Positions 6,455 through 27,238 of a DNA stretch of 32,505 nt are shown here, piece by piece; positions within the stretch are counted from its first letter, which is position 1; each line of letters begins with the position of its first letter. The position numbers were made by a program, and so were the translations under genes. The notes below the pieces were generated by a model that worked only from the letters and a program-made list of their open reading frames with translations, was not told the origin of the DNA and ran no database searches. This DNA comes from Candidatus Bathyarchaeota archaeon (lineage in GTDB: Archaea > Thermoproteota > Bathyarchaeia > Bathyarchaeales > Bathyarchaeaceae): positions 730,725 through 763,229 of the forward strand of contig CP070754.1 in NCBI GenBank assembly GCA_020348865.1, given 5' to 3'.

Positions 6455-6625
6455 TGGCGCCGGGGAAGGGATTTGAACCCTTGAGGCTCAAAGAGCCACT
6501 GGATCTCGACTCTGCCCCTTTTCCTTGGGCGCTATTGATAGGGAAAAAGGTGTCCAGCGCATTACCACTCTGCCACCCCGTATTGAGACATAGAACGCTT
6601 GGCAACGGATGATCAACGCCCCGGC
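6455..6625 (-). tRNA. tRNA-Ser (CGA) with two apparent non-canonical introns
   Basis: Class II tRNA on the minus strand, with CCA encoded at 6457-6455. The T arm is AAGGG-TTCAAAT-CCCTT, the variable arm GGCTC-TTT-GAGCC, the discriminator G73, and the 3' acceptor strand CCCCGGC. The anticodon stem CTGGA/TCCAG encloses the loop CTCGAGA only if 42 bases (6551-6510) are removed between positions 32 and 33. The 5' acceptor strand GCCGGGG, which pairs 7/7, lies at 6625-6619, 43 bases (6618-6576) before T8. Without this second intron the stem would have two mismatches. Both introns fold: CCTTTTTCC pairs with GGAAAAGGG in the anticodon-loop intron, and GTTGA with TCAAT in the acceptor intron. The four-G repeat makes the exact acceptor junction ambiguous. 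Confidence 0.88.
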
Positions 6626-6656: not shown

Positions 6657-6668
6657 CATCTAAAAGCA
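6657..6668 (-). promoter_or_regulatory. Putative TATA box of tRNA-Ser
   Basis: Minus-strand TTTTAGATG lies about 35 bases upstream of the inferred tRNA 5' end at 6625. This spacing would give a short precursor leader, which supports placing the 5' end at 6625 rather than near 6580. Confidence 0.35.
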
Positions 6669-8425: not shown

Positions 8426-9994
8426 ATGAGTAGTAAACTTCAAAGAGCGATTTCCTTCACAATAGATGCAGGGTATCAACTTGATAAACAAGCCTTCGAC
8501 TTTCTAAGCACACTTTCCCAAACGGAAGATCCCGTCAGATTGATGGAAGAAGTAATCAAAAGAATTGAAGCTCTCCCCCAGAAAACTCTGTTCATACAGC
8601 GGAGTTTTCTAGAGGAGATTTTGGAGAGAACATTTAAAGAAGGAAAAGAAGAGAAGCTTGGCTCGCTTGAATCTCCATCGCCAATTCCCCGAGCTAGGAA
8701 GGCGTTCCATGCGTACGCAGAAGATGCTAAAGCGGAAATTGAAGTGATTCAGGATCCCACAGATGAAATATGTGAAACTGGATCCATTGAAGAGTATCTG
8801 AAGTGTTTTCAAGATCGCTTCAAAAGAACACAAAAACTTCTGAGAAGAAGAATTGATGTTAGAGACGCAACGTCCATAACGGAAGCACTCAAATCTTCAG
8901 CTAACACAAAGGTTAAGATTATTTGCATGATTACTGAGAAGCGTGAACGCAAACAAAGAGTGTTTCTGACTGTTGAGGATTTGGAGACCAACGCCACTGT
9001 ACTTGCCTCTCAAAAAACAAATGAAGCCGTGATAAAGAAGGCACGTATGTTGTTGTTGGATCAGACTGTTTGTATATGCGCTATTAGAGGAAGAAACAGT
9101 ATGTTTATCGCAGAAGACATTATTTGGCCAGATATCCCCCAAAGGCAAGCCCATAAAGCCTCAGTACCAGTTTATGCAGCGCTCATATCAGATCTGCATA
9201 TCGGAAGCAAGGCGTTCATGCGAGAGGAGTTCAGTCGATTCGTGCTTTGGTTGAATGGGAAGTTCGGGAATGAAGATTTGAAGGATATAGCAAGTCATGT
9301 TAAGTATGTGGTGATTGCTGGGGACCTTGTAGAAGGAATAGGGATCTATCCGAGGCAGATAGAAGACTTGGCGATAACTGACATATATGAACAGTATCGA
9401 ATGGTCTCGAAATTCTTTGAGCAAATTCCGGATTACATCGAATTGATAATAATCCCTGGAAATCACGACGTGTCACGGAAGGCATTGCCTCAACCCGCCA
9501 TGCCTAGAGATTATGTAGAGGCGCTCTATGAGGGTAGACAAGTTCATTCCCTAGGAAACCCAAGTAGTGTGCGGCTTCATGAGGTTGAACTACTCTTGTA
9601 CCACGGGCGAAGCCTTGAAGATGTTATTGCGTCCATTCCAAATGTTAGCTTTCAAACCCCGGGAATAGCCATGAAGCTTCTCCTACAAAGTAGACATTTG
9701 GCACCCACTTACGGAAAGAAGACGTATATGGCACCAGAAAAGAGGGACTTCATGATTATAGAGAGACCCCCTGACATTTTCCATTCTGGACATATGCATG
9801 TGATAAAAGTCGACAATTATCGAGGAACTCTCATCGTCAACTCTGGGGCTTGGCAAAGACAAACTGAATTCCAAAGGAAAATGGGGATTGTTCCTAACCC
9901 AGGAATTGCCCCAATTGTCAATCTCCAAACATTGCAGGTTACACCTATCGATTTCACAGCATCTTCCACACAGACTCATATAGCTTCCAGTTAA
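8426..9994 (+). CDS. polB: DNA polymerase D small subunit DP1 (3'-5' exonuclease)
   Basis: 522 residues, with an N-terminal helical region, an OB-fold segment (about 155-240) and a C-terminal calcineurin-like phosphoesterase domain. The metal-binding motifs are intact: DLHIGS (about 255), GDLVEG (about 298), PGNHDVSR (about 344), YHGRS (about 392) and GHMH (about 455). In the PolD family this subunit is the proofreading exonuclease, and DP2 carries polymerase activity. DP2 is encoded 8.7 kb away (18729-22130) rather than adjacent. The gene faces cdc6 convergently across 32 bases. TAGGT precedes the ATG closely. An alternative later start is not obvious. Confidence 0.95.
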   Translation: MSSKLQRAISFTIDAGYQLDKQAFDFLSTLSQTEDPVRLMEEVIKRIEALPQKTLFIQRSFLEEILERTFKEGKEEKLGSLESPSPIPRARKAFHAYAEDAKAEIEVIQDPTDEICETGSIEEYLKCFQDRFKRTQKLLRRRIDVRDATSITEALKSSANTKVKIICMITEKRERKQRVFLTVEDLETNATVLASQKTNEAVIKKARMLLLDQTVCICAIRGRNSMFIAEDIIWPDIPQRQAHKASVPVYAALISDLHIGSKAFMREEFSRFVLWLNGKFGNEDLKDIASHVKYVVIAGDLVEGIGIYPRQIEDLAITDIYEQYRMVSKFFEQIPDYIELIIIPGNHDVSRKALPQPAMPRDYVEALYEGRQVHSLGNPSSVRLHEVELLLYHGRSLEDVIASIPNVSFQTPGIAMKLLLQSRHLAPTYGKKTYMAPEKRDFMIIERPPDIFHSGHMHVIKVDNYRGTLIVNSGAWQRQTEFQRKMGIVPNPGIAPIVNLQTLQVTPIDFTASSTQTHIASS

Positions 9995-10026: not shown

Positions 10027-11274
10027 TCAACGTTTGCTCAGAATCACCGATAAGCAGCCAGGTGTATAGTTAATCAACCGTTCAAGCCTGTCATCCCCTT
10101 TGAATGACCCTCTAATGAGACCGTGTGCTATACTCAACCGAACTTTCTTTGTACGACCATATCGTCCCATGCTCACAACTCGTGTATTCAGCAATCCTAT
10201 AACATCCAATTCATTAATCAAGCTACTCACTCGTCTCTGAGTTAGCGGTGCAAGCCCCATCTGACCGGAAAGCTCGCCGTAAACTTCGAAAACGTCACCA
10301 GTAATAGCAGAGCTAACACCCGCCTTCCTCAATAAGTAGACGCTGCATAAAACGAGTTTTGAGTGGAGTGGGAGGTTCTCCAAAGCTTCCGAAATCCGGT
10401 CATGCTCAATCCTTTTTTCCGCCAGTCGTATGTGACCTTCCATAATGATTCCAGAGCCCTCCCTCTCACCCAACTCGCCAGCAACTCGTAGAAGGTCCAA
10501 AGCTCGCCGTGCGTCTCCATGTTCCGCAGCAGCCAACGCAGCACACAAACTAAGAGCGCCATCAAACAACACGCCATCACGAAATGCTAGTTGGGCACGG
10601 TTTAGGAGGATGTCTCGAAGCTCTGTTGCATTATACGGTCTAAATACGATTTCCTCCTCACCTAGAGAACTCAGGACTCTGGGATCAAGAAGCTCCTTGA
10701 ATCTGAGATCGTTGGAAATCCCAATAATTGATGCCCTACTATGCTGAAGGTTTTCGTTTATCCTAGTCAATTTATAAAGTAGAGTGTCCCCTCGCGTTTC
10801 TACGAGGGCATCAATTTCGTCGAGAATTATAATAAAAAGGATTTTATGTGAATCCAAGCAAGATCTGAACCGCTCAAAAACTTCTCCTACCGCTAACCCA
10901 GTAAATGGAACTTTCACGTTAAGGGCAGCACATAGATTTGAAAGAACTCGGTATTCCGTATTCACTAATCGGCAGTTCACGTAACAGGCTTTTATGGGTG
11001 CTCCAACTTCGCAAGCCCTATGAGTTAGTCGGTTCAACACATACTTTATGACCGCAGTTTTTCCTGTGCCTGTTTTTCCATATACCAAGATGTTAGACCC
11101 ATGGGAACCACCCAAAGTTGGGGCATATATTTCACCTACATAACGGATTTGTTCCCCACGATGTGGCAATATATCAGGGACATAATCATTACGCAATACA
11201 TTCCTATCTTGAAAAAGACTGCCACCTTTCAGGAAATGTTCGAAGACTTCATCTAATACATCATTCCTACCCAT
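10027..11274 (-). CDS. cdc6: Orc1/Cdc6 replication initiator
   Basis: 415 residues of the archaeal Orc1/Cdc6 AAA+ family. Walker A is GKTGTGKT (66-73), Walker B LDEID (151-155), sensor 1 region 'ASIIGISNDL', and a C-terminal winged helix (about residues 325-415) binds origin DNA. A start at 11274 is preferred over the in-frame ATG at 11295: a TATA box (CAATATAATG, 11304-11295) is centred about 26 bases upstream of 11274. This fits a leaderless mRNA, and no Shine-Dalgarno is visible for either start. The gene points away from the ORB-bearing region 11275-11966, which it presumably recognises. Confidence 0.95.
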   Translation of the reverse strand: MGRNDVLDEVFEHFLKGGSLFQDRNVLRNDYVPDILPHRGEQIRYVGEIYAPTLGGSHGSNILVYGKTGTGKTAVIKYVLNRLTHRACEVGAPIKACYVNCRLVNTEYRVLSNLCAALNVKVPFTGLAVGEVFERFRSCLDSHKILFIIILDEIDALVETRGDTLLYKLTRINENLQHSRASIIGISNDLRFKELLDPRVLSSLGEEEIVFRPYNATELRDILLNRAQLAFRDGVLFDGALSLCAALAAAEHGDARRALDLLRVAGELGEREGSGIIMEGHIRLAEKRIEHDRISEALENLPLHSKLVLCSVYLLRKAGVSSAITGDVFEVYGELSGQMGLAPLTQRRVSSLINELDVIGLLNTRVVSMGRYGRTKKVRLSIAHGLIRGSFKGDDRLERLINYTPGCLSVILSKR

Positions 11275-11294
11275 AACAAACACTTCAACACACA

Positions 11295-11304
11295 CATTAT
11301 ATTG
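11295..11304 (-). promoter_or_regulatory. TATA box of cdc6
   Basis: Minus-strand CAATATAATG is centred about 26 bases before the ATG at 11274, the classical archaeal distance from TATA centre to start site. The transcript is therefore predicted to begin at or next to the start codon. Confidence 0.5.
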
Positions 11305-18603: not shown

Positions 18604-18728
18604 TTGATCCTCCTTTGTGAGTTTGCGTGAATGGTTTTGTGGTGTTCTCTTTTGTTTGTTTGTGTTAGAAAAGTTGAATATGCGCCTAACCAGATTCTAT
18701 GAAGGGAAAAATCATTCTGAGCATTGCG

Positions 18729-21700
18729 ATGAGCGAGGAGTACGAGCAATATGTATTTTCATTGGCGAAAAAACTCGAGAGCATATATGAAACTGCGAGA
18801 AACGCAAGAGAAAAGGGGTTTGATCCCTTCCTTCACCCAGAGCCTAGAATAGCTAAGGATCTAGCCGAACTCGTGGAGGGTATGGTTGGTCCCGAAGGCG
18901 TTGCTGAAAGTATACGTAACTTGAGCGGAAAGTTACCACGGGAAGAGCTTGCGTTTAAGATAGCTGAAGAGATTGTATATGGAAAGTTCGGGCACATGGA
19001 TGTGCAGGGGGGCGCTGACCAAGCGATAAGAACCGCCCTTGCCATACTGACTGAAGGCATTACGGCTGCGCCTCTGCAAGGTGTGGCGCAAGTAGCTGTC
19101 AAGCTGAACTCTGACCGAACGAAATATCTGGCAATCTATTACGCCGGTCCCATACGCTCTGCAGGCGGTACAGAGCAAGCTTTGAGTCTGTTGGTCGGAG
19201 ATTTTGTTCGCCGCTTGCTTGGGCTAGATCGCTACAAACCGACAGAAGACGAGATTGAACGCTTTGTTGAAGAAATGAGAGTATTTGAGCGATCAGTAGG
19301 TCGATTTCAATATCACGTGTCAGATGAAGAATTGAGAAGGGCTCTTCAACACCTACCCGTGGAAGTCACTGGATTGGAATCCAACCCAGTTGAAGTTGCC
19401 GCCCACCGTGACCTTCCCCGAATCGAGACGAACCGGGTACGGGGTGGTGCACTCCGCGTTGTAAACGACGGAGTCGTGGGGCGTTCGGCAAAAGTATGGA
19501 CAATTGTGGAAAAACTGGGAATTGAAGGCTGGGGCTGGTTGAAGGGTATTCGGGAAATTGAACAGAAGAGAAATGCTGGTTTTATGGAGGACATCATTGC
19601 AGGGCGCCCAGTCTTTTCATTTCCTTCTAGGCGTGGAGGCTTCAGGCTCCGCTATGGAAGGTCTAGAAACACAGGTCTAGCTGCAGTTGGGGTTCATCCT
19701 GCTACCATGATGGTTCTTCAAGGCTTTCTTGCAGCAGGCACCCAGCTTCGCATTGAATGTCCAGGAAAAGCTGGAGTTGTTCTTCCAGTGGATACGATAG
19801 AGCCTCCAATTGTGCGATTAAGAGATGGATCTGTTGTTCGCGTTTCGCTTGAAAACTTCGAACAGATAAAGGACGTAATTGATAAAGTCCTATTCTTGGG
19901 CGATATCCTCATCGGGTTTGGCGATTTTCTCTACACAAACAAACCTCTCTTTCCATCAGGGCTGACAGAAGAATGGTGGTGTCAGGAACTCCACGGGGCT
20001 ATTAAGCAGAGATTCAACGGAAATATGGGAGCGGTTGCTGCAGCGACGAAGATTACTGTGAAACGTCTTGAAGGATTCCTTACCGCTCCTTTTAGAGACA
20101 AGCCAACTGCCAAAGAAGCACTATCGCTAGCCTCACTCGTTGGGGGTCCTCTTCACCCATCATTTACATTCTACTGGTCAAATCTATCCCCTGACGAACT
20201 CCGAGTGTTACGGAAGTGGTTCTTAAACTCTCAAAGAGAGGTTGAGGATGAAACCATTCGTAAAATATCCGGGAGGATGAATAAATCGGTAAAACAGTTG
20301 CTCGAAAAGGCTTGCATTCCTCACAAAATTGTGGAGAGCAACATTGAGTTGGTAGGTGATGAGGCTTGCATCATCGCATTCTGTCTAGGACTAAACAATT
20401 CCAAGACAAGAATAACTGCTTCGAAAACTGTTCTTGACAACATCGGAACACTTTGTGGTATTCACGTCGGAGAAAAAGCTCCAACGTATGTGGGTGCGAG
20501 AATGGGGCGTCCGGAAAAGGCGAGGAGGCGAGAGATGAAGCCCATGGTACATGTACTTTTCCCGGTTGGACTTGTCGGTGGTCATCGTCGGAATATTGTG
20601 AAAGCTTCAAACAAAGTTAAGATTGAAGTTGAGCTTGTGAAGCGACGATGCTCTGACTGTCGAACAGAAACCCATACGACAAAATGCCCCGAATGTGGAG
20701 GGGAAACAATCCTAGACCAATCCTGCCTTCAATGTGGCAAGACTATAGGAGAGGGCCTTTGCCCGATCTGCAAGATTCCAACAAGGAGCTACAGCAAACA
20801 ATCAATTGACCTAAGGAAAATGATGAATGATGCAAGTGAAAGACTCAATCTCCCAATCCCAGAGCTTGTGAAAGGCGTAAAAGGGCTAATGAATGAGACA
20901 AAGACGGTTGAGACACTTGAAAAGGGAATTCTGCGATCAAGATATAATCTTTCCGTTTTCAAAGATGGAACAATCCGATTCGATGCCACAAATGCGCCAT
21001 TAACACATTTCAAACCAAAAGAAATTGGTGTGCCTTTTGAAAAGCTTCAACAACTAGGCTATCTTCATGATTGTCACGGAAATACGCTAAGCGATCCAGA
21101 CCAGATATGTGAGCTCAAGGCTCAAGATGTAATCATTCCGCTGAAAAGCGCTGAATACTTCGTTCGTGTGGCCAATTTTTTGGACGATTTACTTGAGAAG
21201 GCGTACGGGCTTCCTCCATTTTACAGCGTTGAGAGGATTGATGACTTGGTGGGACATTTGATTATAGGCTTAGCGCCCCACACCTCGGTGGGCATTCTCG
21301 GCAGAGTAATTGGTTTCACAGGTCACAACGTCTGTTACGCCCATGTTCTTTGGCATTCAGCGAAACGGCGGGATTGTGATGGTGATGAGGATGCTTTGAT
21401 GCTGGCTTTAGATACCATTCTGAACTTCTCTAAGGCATATTTGCCAGCTCAAATAGGTGGGATAATGGATGCTCCGCTATTCATCATTCCTGTAGTGAAC
21501 CCTCTGGAAGTGCAACGCCAAGCGCACGAAGTAGATGTTGCTGCAACATACCCACTGGCTTTTTACGAGAAGGCTCAACAGAGAGTCATGCCTCGTAAGA
21601 TTGGTGAACTCGTGGATCTAATTGAGTATCGACTAAACAGTGAAGCACAATTTCAAGGCTTCAACTACACGATTCCTGTCTCAAACATTAGCATGGGCAA

Positions 21701-22130
21701 TTGTGAAAGCGTTTACAAAAGGTTGGGGCAAATGCTTGACAAGTTAAGTCGCCAACTCACGTTAGCAGAGAAAATTAATGCAGTGGACGCCGAGACCGTT
21801 GCGAGGAAAGTTCTGACCACACATTTCATGCGAGACATCATGGGTAATCTGCGAGCATTTACCACTCAAAGCTTTCGGTGTAAGAAGTGCAGCAAACGTT
21901 TGAGAAGGCTCCCTCTTCGAGGAAAGTGCCCCACGTGCGGAGGCGATTTGGTCTTAACTGTTCATCGTGGTGGAATCGAAAAGTACTTGGAAGCCGCACG
22001 CCAACTCGTAAAGAAATACAGGTTGCCGGATTACTATACTCAACGACTTGCGCTTGTGGAAGAAGAGATTCGCTCCTTGTTCGAAGGCAACAAGCCTAGG
22101 CAGGTGAGCCTCTCCAACTTTGTAGCTTGA
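18729..22130 (+). CDS. polC: DNA polymerase D large subunit DP2
   Basis: 1133 residues from the ATG at 18729 (in-frame ATG at 18699 is the alternative; neither has a clear ribosome-binding site). This is the catalytic subunit of archaeal PolD. Visible conserved parts are 'SAGGTEQALSLLVGDFVRR' near 150, the two-barrel core motif 'RRDCDGDEDALMLALD' near 880 with acidic catalytic residues, 'GGIMDAPLFI' near 910, and two zinc modules: a Cys-rich cluster (CSDC, CPEC, CLQC, CPIC) near 640-690 and CKKC/CPTC near 1050. No intein was seen: the frame is continuous and of normal length. DP1 is 8.7 kb upstream on the same strand, so the subunits are not in one operon. Confidence 0.97.
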   Translation: MSEEYEQYVFSLAKKLESIYETARNAREKGFDPFLHPEPRIAKDLAELVEGMVGPEGVAESIRNLSGKLPREELAFKIAEEIVYGKFGHMDVQGGADQAIRTALAILTEGITAAPLQGVAQVAVKLNSDRTKYLAIYYAGPIRSAGGTEQALSLLVGDFVRRLLGLDRYKPTEDEIERFVEEMRVFERSVGRFQYHVSDEELRRALQHLPVEVTGLESNPVEVAAHRDLPRIETNRVRGGALRVVNDGVVGRSAKVWTIVEKLGIEGWGWLKGIREIEQKRNAGFMEDIIAGRPVFSFPSRRGGFRLRYGRSRNTGLAAVGVHPATMMVLQGFLAAGTQLRIECPGKAGVVLPVDTIEPPIVRLRDGSVVRVSLENFEQIKDVIDKVLFLGDILIGFGDFLYTNKPLFPSGLTEEWWCQELHGAIKQRFNGNMGAVAAATKITVKRLEGFLTAPFRDKPTAKEALSLASLVGGPLHPSFTFYWSNLSPDELRVLRKWFLNSQREVEDETIRKISGRMNKSVKQLLEKACIPHKIVESNIELVGDEACIIAFCLGLNNSKTRITASKTVLDNIGTLCGIHVGEKAPTYVGARMGRPEKARRREMKPMVHVLFPVGLVGGHRRNIVKASNKVKIEVELVKRRCSDCRTETHTTKCPECGGETILDQSCLQCGKTIGEGLCPICKIPTRSYSKQSIDLRKMMNDASERLNLPIPELVKGVKGLMNETKTVETLEKGILRSRYNLSVFKDGTIRFDATNAPLTHFKPKEIGVPFEKLQQLGYLHDCHGNTLSDPDQICELKAQDVIIPLKSAEYFVRVANFLDDLLEKAYGLPPFYSVERIDDLVGHLIIGLAPHTSVGILGRVIGFTGHNVCYAHVLWHSAKRRDCDGDEDALMLALDTILNFSKAYLPAQIGGIMDAPLFIIPVVNPLEVQRQAHEVDVAATYPLAFYEKAQQRVMPRKIGELVDLIEYRLNSEAQFQGFNYTIPVSNISMGNCESVYKRLGQMLDKLSRQLTLAEKINAVDAETVARKVLTTHFMRDIMGNLRAFTTQSFRCKKCSKRLRRLPLRGKCPTCGGDLVLTVHRGGIEKYLEAARQLVKKYRLPDYYTQRLALVEEEIRSLFEGNKPRQVSLSNFVA

Positions 22131-25405: not shown

Positions 25406-27238
25406 ATGCTCAAGATGACTTCTACCAAATCTTTAGATCAATACTTAAGCAAAGCGACTAGGCGCTATTCGTCATTGTTTACACTTCCATCTCAAAGAAA
25501 AGGGATTCTGCTTCTATGCATATTATGTGTATTAGGCGGAGCTCTTTCAATTCCACCATTATCCTTTTCTTACTTTGGCATCATACTAGGTCTAGCTTTC
25601 GGGGCAAGCTTCTTTCTCATCGTTATTTTATCTGATTTCATAGTAGCTCATAGCTGTATGAAAGAGGATCACGTTTTCAGTCTAAGGCGTTGTTTATTCC
25701 TCTCTTTGTTTTCCAGCCTTTTTTGGTTCGGGCTTGTCTTTCTTGGCGATGTTGTCAGCCTTTTCTCTGGGAATTCCAGTTTTTGGATTAAGTTTTTCCT
25801 TTTGGGGTTCTGTGCGGCGTTGACTCTTCGTTTGCTAGTCTTTTCCGCAGCTTCGTTTGCTAACCGTGGGGGGGTTATTCTTTCTTCTCTGCTGCAGCCC
25901 ACATTGTGTATTAGCCCTGTTCTTTTCATGCACTCGGTGATAGAATACGATTTAGCTTTGCTTCTGGTTTTTTTCTCGCTTTCCATTCCAACCATTGTGT
26001 TGACGATTCTTCTTTTCACTCTATGCCTGGATCGTGTTGGCAGAAGAATCGTGGGGGTTCCTTCTCTCTCCCTCTTCAAAGCGTTTCTGGCAGATTGGAC
26101 AGAATCCATGAACGCGCCTCTTGAAAGTCTTTTTGAGAGACTTGGCGATGAAATGGACGTAAAGCTTTCTCTTTTGGGATTCCGAACTGGTGAAAGAGTT
26201 AAGGCTATAATTGCTGTTCCCGGGTGTCATCCTGGGCCTTTCAGGAATGTTGGTAGTAGCCTTCTCCCATATATGATTCAAAGCGCGTTAGAAGACAAAC
26301 TACAGTGTGTGGCTTCCGTACCTCATGGATTGCTTGGCCATGATTTCGACCTCTCTTCTCAACTTCAAAGTCAGAAAGTCGTAGAGCACGTTCTTTCTTG
26401 TGTGGATTTTTCTCATTCTGATTCCAGGATTACTCCATTCATTCAAATTCGAAAAGAAGGGGCGACTGCAAGTTGCCAAATATTCGGAGACTGTGCGTTC
26501 ATTACATTAACAGTTGCACCCAAAACCATGGAGGATTTGCCCAACGAGTTGGCCTCACTTATTGTTAGCGAAGCCAAGAACCAACGACTGCCTTCTACAA
26601 TAGTCGTTGATGCCCACAACAGCATAGATGGTCCATTCAAACCCGGTCAGGCAATACGGGCTCTCCAAAAAGCTGCAGCAATAAGTCTTGAAGAAGCTTC
26701 ACTAAGTAAACGTTCTTCGTTTGAAGTGGGAGCTGCGAAAGTTATTCCTAGAGAGTTTAGTGTTGAGGAAGGTATGGGACTTGGAGGAATAAGCGTGATT
26801 CTGGTAAAGGTGGGCGATCAAAGAACAGCATATGTGACCATTGACGGAAACAACATGATATCTGGGCTCCGAGAGAAAATTCTTACAATGCTTCAGGAAA
26901 TTGGTGTCGTTGATGGAGAAGTTTTCACCACCGACACGCATATCGTGACTGGTGTTGCGACAACCGTGCGTGGATACCACCCTGTTGGCGAGGTGATGGA
27001 TCATTCGAAGCTAATCAGTTATGTCAAGGAAGCTGCGGAGGAAGCGCTAGTTGGTCTAAAACCTGCAGAGGTGTCGAAGCGCATATGCATCGTTCCAAAC
27101 GTCAAGGTCATTGGAGAGAAGTCTATAGAAGCTTTATGTGTAGTTGTCGATGAAGCGATGAAACGAGCTAAGAGACTGTCAGCGGTTCTCTTTTCGGCAA
27201 CTGCCCTTCTTCTAATAGGCTTGCTTTCACTTCTTTAG
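25406..27238 (+). CDS. DUF2070 family membrane protein
   Basis: 610 residues. Residues about 30-210 form several membrane helices (for example 'GILLLCILCVLGGALSIPPL', 'LAFGASFFLIVILSDFIV', 'LALLLVFFSLSIPTIVLTIL'). Residues about 230-590 form a soluble domain, and a last membrane helix ends the protein (LFSATALLLIGLLSLL). The soluble domain carries 'PGCHPGPFRNVGSSLLP', 'SVPHGLLGHDFDL', 'VVDAHNS' and 'TDTHIVTG', rich in His and Asp, suggesting metal binding. This matches the archaeal DUF2070 family. Its function is not established to my knowledge. An in-frame ATG at residue 4 is an alternative start. CTTTATGAAC near 25361 may be the TATA box. Confidence 0.88.
   Translation: MLKMTSTKSLDQYLSKATRRYSSLFTLPSQRKGILLLCILCVLGGALSIPPLSFSYFGIILGLAFGASFFLIVILSDFIVAHSCMKEDHVFSLRRCLFLSLFSSLFWFGLVFLGDVVSLFSGNSSFWIKFFLLGFCAALTLRLLVFSAASFANRGGVILSSLLQPTLCISPVLFMHSVIEYDLALLLVFFSLSIPTIVLTILLFTLCLDRVGRRIVGVPSLSLFKAFLADWTESMNAPLESLFERLGDEMDVKLSLLGFRTGERVKAIIAVPGCHPGPFRNVGSSLLPYMIQSALEDKLQCVASVPHGLLGHDFDLSSQLQSQKVVEHVLSCVDFSHSDSRITPFIQIRKEGATASCQIFGDCAFITLTVAPKTMEDLPNELASLIVSEAKNQRLPSTIVVDAHNSIDGPFKPGQAIRALQKAAAISLEEASLSKRSSFEVGAAKVIPREFSVEEGMGLGGISVILVKVGDQRTAYVTIDGNNMISGLREKILTMLQEIGVVDGEVFTTDTHIVTGVATTVRGYHPVGEVMDHSKLISYVKEAAEEALVGLKPAEVSKRICIVPNVKVIGEKSIEALCVVVDEAMKRAKRLSAVLFSATALLLIGLLSLL

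Follow-up and report, generated by a model that had tools for sequence, protein, structure and literature searches.

Introns at unusual positions, several to a gene and each set in a bulge-helix-bulge (BHB) motif, are known from tRNA genes of Crenarchaeota (Thermoproteales) and Thaumarchaeota, as described in the accessible parts of PMC4090602, PMC4033280 and PMC8450103, the last of these being the tRNAscan-SE 2.0 paper. The bathyarchaeal tRNA-Ser(CGA) gene analysed here resembles them, as far as those parts go, in the short length, odd positions and number per gene of its introns, in their putative removal by the splicing endonuclease EndA, and in a possible ordered removal of neighbours. An earlier note on this DNA had drawn attention to the presence of two introns in one gene; both are indeed of the BHB type, but several non-canonical introns per gene are a known kind of arrangement. 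The unusual feature of the gene is a duplicate of its 5' acceptor strand, located upstream of the tRNA, which had been absorbed into the earlier splice model. The non-canonical introns, in the portions of those descriptions available, come with no duplicated upstream acceptor strand, whereas here one accompanies introns at positions from 3/4 to 10/11.

Two other kinds of rearranged tRNA genes invite comparison. In the split and tri-split tRNAs of Nanoarchaeum, Caldivirga and Desulfurococcales, according to the part of PMC3218864 that was available, a leader joins the BHB, as TCC and GTT of the linker do here; unlike them, our gene is not divided into separately encoded halves that meet in trans but would give one cis transcript, and its leader also duplicates a strand of the tRNA itself. 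Permuted tRNAs (PMC3978253, PMC3218864, equally available in part) resemble our gene in that a strand is found away from its normal location and one more step of processing is called for, but their 3' half lies upstream of the 5' half, whereas the order is normal here and the strand is duplicated rather than moved. A literature search, extended to Bathyarchaeota tRNA introns and to strand exchange, turned up no earlier account of acceptor-strand duplication in the parts of the sources that were accessible. Since the important older literature was covered incompletely by that search, the spare acceptor strand is likely, although not proven, to be new.

The window, that is, the whole stretch of 32,505 nucleotides that was analysed, belongs to a genome of 1.50 Mb assembled as one contig. 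On its minus strand, from 6625 to 6455, all the parts of a tRNA-Ser(CGA) gene follow each other in order within 171 bases (Table 1). No tRNA was called in the unspliced window by ARAGORN or Rfam; upon removal of the introns a canonical tRNA was restored, and the 86-nt spliced product was accepted by ARAGORN as Ser(cga) with all arms, in agreement with the identification made in the earlier note. That note had named an intact second Ser(CGA) gene, together with the lack of a spliced product from this locus, as what would speak against it, and whole-genome searches with the mature sequence found none: the strong matches were both halves of the window gene, and a third match was weaker. These data also bear on the idea that the locus is a decayed pseudogene, to which the window's intron 1, with its weak inner helix, and a poor predicted fold might point. 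Given that the cloverleaf is perfect, that orthologues are conserved in the genus and that the searches of the genome, a single contig, gave no other intact Ser(CGA), that idea is barely credible.

Table 1. Parts of the tRNA-Ser(CGA) gene and of its upstream region (window coordinates).
Feature	Position	Strand	Remarks
Possible TATA element TTTTAGAT	6658..6665	-	Lies 33-40 nt 5' of the spare strand
Spare (surrogate) acceptor strand GCCGGGG	6619..6625	-	Perfect complement of the tRNA 3' strand CCCCGGC
Linker/5' leader CGTTGATCATCCGTT	6604..6618	-	At its 3' end, TCC (outer-helix strand) and GTT (three central-helix bases of the BHB)
Exon 1, GCC (tRNA positions 1-3)	6601..6603	-	Placed by the BHB cut between GCC and A and by analogy with tRNA-Gln and tRNA-Ser(UGA)
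Intron 1, at 3/4, 21 nt	6580..6600	-	Central helix GTTG (6606-6603)/CAAT (6585-6582), bulges CCA and ACG
Exon 2, GGGG (4-7), T8, D arm, 5' strand of anticodon stem, C32	6552..6579	-	
Intron 2, at 32/33, 42 nt	6510..6551	-	Long inner helix; central helix CTGG/GCAG, with 3 pairs out of 4
Exon 3, T33-C34-G35-A36 through CCCCGGC, G73 and encoded CCA	6455..6509	-	

The intron next to the anticodon raised no difficulty. ARAGORN, by its intron mode alone, placed the 42-nt intron (6551-6510) between C32 and T33, the same placement as in the earlier note, whose count of three central pairs out of four (CTG/CAG) is also right for the window. This intron is kept, with changed pairs, in relatives G001-G003, G153, G037, G028 and G047, and its central helix is complete elsewhere (CTGG/CCGG, CTGG/CTGG).

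The intron in the acceptor stem required a different reading. The minus strand reads GCCGGGG-CGTTGATCATCCGTT-GCC, then the intron AAGCGTTCTATGTCTCAATAC, then GGGG-T8; cuts between GCC and A (6601/6600) and between C and GGGG (6580/6579), each after the second base of a bulge, would join GCC to GGGG. Because GGGG is repeated, the mature sequence cannot separate this reading from removal of 43 nt at 7/8, and the question was addressed through related genomes. A pattern search of the 163 genomes of the order, in which no upstream element was required, found the 3/4-intron arrangement in 14 genes of 12 genomes, including three genomes of the same genus as well as other families of the order; at least four further Bathyarchaeota contig records carried the same gene arrangement among the matches listed. 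In the genes behind three other pattern matches, in G016, G073 and G078, GCCGGGGT is uninterrupted and the motif is lacking. Among the 11 genomes that were compared, the central helix at 3/4, flanked by two 3-nt bulges, had all four pairs in ten and three in the remaining one (three to four for intron 2), its third pair being T-A, T-G or C-G. The third pair of the inner helix was A-T, G-C or C-G and the fourth C-G, A-T or T-A, so that the inner helix covaries across the relatives, in which it has 4-7 bp; it is weak in the window's own intron 1, with 2 bp.

It was the reading of the earlier note that the upstream GCCGGGG (6625-6619) is the exon and that a single 43-nt intron is removed at 7/8. 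It would yield an identical mature sequence, and the distance between the TATA-like element and the upstream copy is similar to the one seen in relatives that lack the intron: the T-rich element TTTTAGAT, a possible TATA element, has similar counterparts in several relatives, ca. 33-40 nt 5' of the spare strand, and in one (L029) ca. 32 nt 5' of the intact acceptor. However, the central helix required at 7/8 has only 2-3 of its four pairs across the 11 genomes and is not conserved, whereas the BHB at 3/4 is conserved with covariation. The same model applied to tRNA-Gln and tRNA-Ser(UGA) (see below) would moreover lose T8 to position 10, and we regard it as very unlikely. Since the covarying BHB of the relatives cuts there, comparison of the sequences identifies intron 1 as the 21-nt intron at 3/4; an intron in the acceptor stem thus stands as proposed in the earlier note, with a different length and site.

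All 14 genes with the 3/4 intron, although retrieved without asking for one, carry the spare strand upstream, as GCCGGGG in 13 of them and as GCCGGGA in one. It is separated from the inner GCC by a linker of 9-16 nt, which ends mostly in CCGTT and is otherwise variable; linker and upstream flanks drift between relatives while the spare strand stays. Comparable duplications were traced in the window's own genome from Rfam matches that lacked an acceptor stem. They belong to tRNA-Gln(CUG) (AGCCCGG-N8-AGCCCGGTGG-intron-TGTAGC) and tRNA-Gln(UUG) (GGCCCGG-N10-AGCCCGGTAG-intron-TGTAGC), both with the intron at 10/11, and to tRNA-Ser(UGA) (GCCGGGA-N7-GCCGGGAT-intron-GGCAGAG), with the intron at 8/9. 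The central helices of the Gln and Ser(UGA) introns, CGGU/GCCG and CGGG/CCCG, draw on the inner acceptor strand. In these genes T8 comes after the inner copy alone, which makes that copy their exon; by analogy, and from the conserved BHB, the inner GCC plus GGGG is to be taken as the exon of tRNA-Ser(CGA) and the upstream GCCGGGG, contrary to the earlier assignment, as a conserved duplicate in front of it.

The copies suit the tRNAs in front of which they lie (GCCGGGG, GCCGGGA, AGCCCGG, GCTCCGG), and they are restricted to one class of introns. In the window's genome, for which Rfam reported 27 tRNAs above the cut-off, a copy accompanies all four genes with introns at 3/4, 8/9 or 10/11 and none of 25 others, several of which have introns elsewhere; upstream of these 25 no match to the gene's own acceptor strand exceeded 5 of 7. 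The 30 full-length tRNAs of relative G003 gave the same picture, one of them reaching 6/7 identity. When pairing with the 3' strand was scored within 30 nt upstream, with G.U allowed, none of the 55 controls from the two genomes (G000 and G003) reached 7 pairs and five reached 6. The copy, a complement of the 3' strand, is found at most ca. 20 nt upstream where the BHB of an intron uses the acceptor strand, and is absent (no control at 7 pairs) where there is no such intron. As far as sequences can tell, then, the introns, the conservation and complementarity of the copy, and its association with this class of introns are established.

The arrangement is spread through the phylum. Within the order, a duplicated GCCCGG...AGCCCGGT pattern rendered 19 matches, 15 of them tRNA-Gln genes, and the reversed pattern none; within the class, a stricter copy pattern rendered 29 genes in 22 of 257 genomes, and a control pattern none. 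A search of 398 genomes of the phylum for the 10/11-intron pattern, with no copy required, found 20 tRNA-Gln genes in 14 genomes, from families inside and outside the class, and the copy was present in 20/20, forming 7 pairs with the 3' strand in 17 and 6 in three. Altogether 40 distinct Gln genes were collected, with 7/7 pairs in 37 and 6/7 in three; many came from searches that required a copy, the unbiased figure being the 20/20 given above. (One tRNA-Ser(UGA) row of the pairing table is aligned at the wrong copy.) The counts are not independent if, as may be the case, the Gln, Ser(UGA) and Ser(CGA) intron families each had few origins. Other instances came from partial tRNA matches that had not been looked for: a tRNA-Glu of G027 (10/11 intron, GCTCCGG copy, 7 pairs), an initiator-type tRNA-Met of G003 (G003:C31:128548-129013; 4/5 intron inside the acceptor stem, TGCGGGG copy, 6 pairs) and a tRNA of G012 with the acceptor strand GGGCGGG (9/10 intron, GGGTGGA copy, 6 pairs). 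The single 4/5 and 9/10 examples are weak, since a complementarity of 6/7 arose by chance in five of the 55 controls with G.U allowed.

A copy of this kind could be a functionless leftover of a duplication that took place when the intron was inserted. A direct repeat of 6-7 nt does lie beside each such intron, and duplication is a plausible origin for it, but the copy has been kept across many families of the phylum while linkers and flanks drifted. The way in which it changes also argues against neutrality. It is identical to the acceptor strand in only 24 of the 40 Gln genes, and most of the changes preserve pairing with the 3' strand: the commonest replaces A1 by G and so retains a G.U pair; CGTCCGG and CGCCTGG keep internal pairing by G.U; and in the changed copies as a whole (GGCCCGG, CGTCCGG, CGCCTGG, GGGTGGA) the changes are mostly to G.U. 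We therefore consider a neutral leftover quite unlikely. It could also be imagined that the two copies delimit a twintron, from which the 21-nt intron is removed first and the segment between the copies then leaves as a second intron. The direct repeats would allow this for tRNA-Ser(CGA), and the CCGG of both copies is self-complementary. In tRNA-Gln, by contrast, no frame of the repeat would by our reasoning allow a central helix and at the same time yield the correct mature tRNA; the linkers found outside the class, 1-3 nt long, are too short to contain an intron; and the 5' leader of a tRNA is ordinarily removed by RNase P. Such a second intron is extremely unlikely.

Folding of the precursors with RNAfold, from a set that excluded chance bacterial matches, predicts that the copy pairs with the 3' strand. 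In the Gln precursors the median probability was 0.98 for this pairing and 0.00 for that of the inner strand with the 3' strand; when the copy was scrambled, the inner strand took the 3' strand (median 0.94), whereby the BHB would be undone. In the Ser(CGA) precursors the copy paired with a median probability of 0.99, and with a scrambled copy the inner pairing was only 0.01, the inner GGGG being held in the intron hairpin. Scrambling cost a median of 5.7-9.0 kcal/mol. For the window's own RNA another fold was preferred, with only 0.06 for the copy and the 3' strand. The exact BHB register was not the favoured one in most Ser(CGA) genes; since RNAfold slips the CAACAA register, BHB probability failed as a test, and the pairing state of the 3' strand took its place. 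The outcome for tRNA-Ser(CGA), where a scrambled copy leaves the 3' strand without a partner and the intron hairpin still forms, is what would be expected if the copy served mainly 5' or 3' end processing or stability, as a stem for RNase P or tRNase Z or a protection of the 3' end, rather than the freeing of the splice site. The predicted loss of the BHB in tRNA-Gln upon scrambling goes against this, and both roles may coexist; as the main role, end processing is unlikely, though it is to be taken more seriously than the alternatives above.

The reading that we prefer, in which the copy spares the true strand, would run as follows. In the precursor, the true strand (GCC plus GGGG) would be engaged in the BHB of intron 1, and the 3' strand of the tRNA would have the upstream duplicate as its partner, so that the acceptor stem is complete while the splice site forms. 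EndA would cut the 3/4 BHB and a ligase would join the ends, restoring the inner strand, which would then displace the duplicate; RNase P would cut at the inner G1, and the duplicate and the linker would be lost as leader. The exchange step finds a mixed response in the folding. In spliced intermediates folded freely the spare strand was still paired (median 0.97-0.98), but with the tRNA body fixed, in four examples, the inner strand was about equal to the upstream one in one case and better by 4.6-7.7 kcal/mol in three. Because the inner strand is near-equal or better only with a fixed body, strand exchange is possible rather than predicted. We put at roughly 0.7 the probability of the whole explanation: that the locus is a functional single-copy gene, presumably expressed, with two EndA-type introns, at 3/4 (21 nt) and 32/33 (42 nt), and that its spare strand frees the true strand for the splicing motif, exchange and removal by RNase P being the steps that should follow. 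The same device would accompany archaeal introns whose motif uses the 5' acceptor strand, at 3/4, 4/5, 8/9, 9/10 and 10/11. The extension to the phylum, according to which such introns are tolerated only with a spare strand in the leader and strand exchange is obligatory between splicing and RNase P, we favour by a small measure.

If it holds, the spare strand explains how an intron can occupy a stem that is needed by processing enzymes, since the gene brings a second strand, and it predicts an ordered pathway: spare stem, splicing, strand exchange, RNase P. It could also be what permits introns near the 5' end to originate. For tRNA finders, it offers a signature of interrupted genes that they may miss.

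The earlier note had advised checking whether the endonuclease is of the heteromeric, broad-specificity type. The genome encodes an EndA of 185 aa (L028:1228-1785; PF02778 and PF01974), which is closest to crenarchaeal catalytic subunits (S. tokodaii 2cv8, A. pernix 3p1z_B). Aligned to the A. pernix protein, it has K-P-K at the K44-P45-R46 site, with the conserved Lys of the loop found in the (alpha-beta)2 type; this crenarchaea-specific loop has been tied to broad EndA specificity (PMC12397907). In its loop the enzyme is thus like the broad-specificity (alpha-beta)2 EndA, from which it differs in that a single PF01974 gene was found here: no second PF01974 match appeared in the genome up to E=10, a search that a divergent beta subunit could escape. 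The check comes out favourably for the loop.

Several other tRNA loci of the genome were recorded. The two tRNA-Gln genes found in it, both with the 10/11 intron and the spare strand, lie at G000:C1:914382-914437 (CUG) and 1485154-1485205 (UUG). The tRNA-Ser(UGA) gene (G000:C1:929065-929270) has, close to its anticodon loop, a further insertion of ca. 10 nt, a size below that of usual introns. A tRNA-Ser gene, probably GGA, on the minus strand (G000:C1:1100661-1101078) lacks a spare strand and apparently has three introns, located in the D loop, the anticodon stem and the anticodon loop. A tRNA-Gln-like 3' fragment (G000:C1:911107-911126, minus strand), whose 5' half is unrecognisable, lies ca. 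3 kb from tRNA-Gln(CUG); it is either a pseudogene or a gene with strong interruptions. The 5' part of tRNA-Thr occurs as a copy (GCCTCGGTGGCTCAGC...CGTAAGC; G000:C1:559513-559575, minus strand) with no proper 3' part, which is perhaps the integration scar of a mobile element.

Elsewhere in the window, positions 25406-27238 encode a 610-aa membrane protein with a DUF2070 match in Pfam and no NCBIfam name. The genes for the small (8426-9994) and large (18699-22130) subunits of PolD lie on one strand at a distance of ca. 9 kb from each other; the interval holds a Cdc6/Orc1 gene (10027-11295, minus strand), and this region is possibly near a replication origin.
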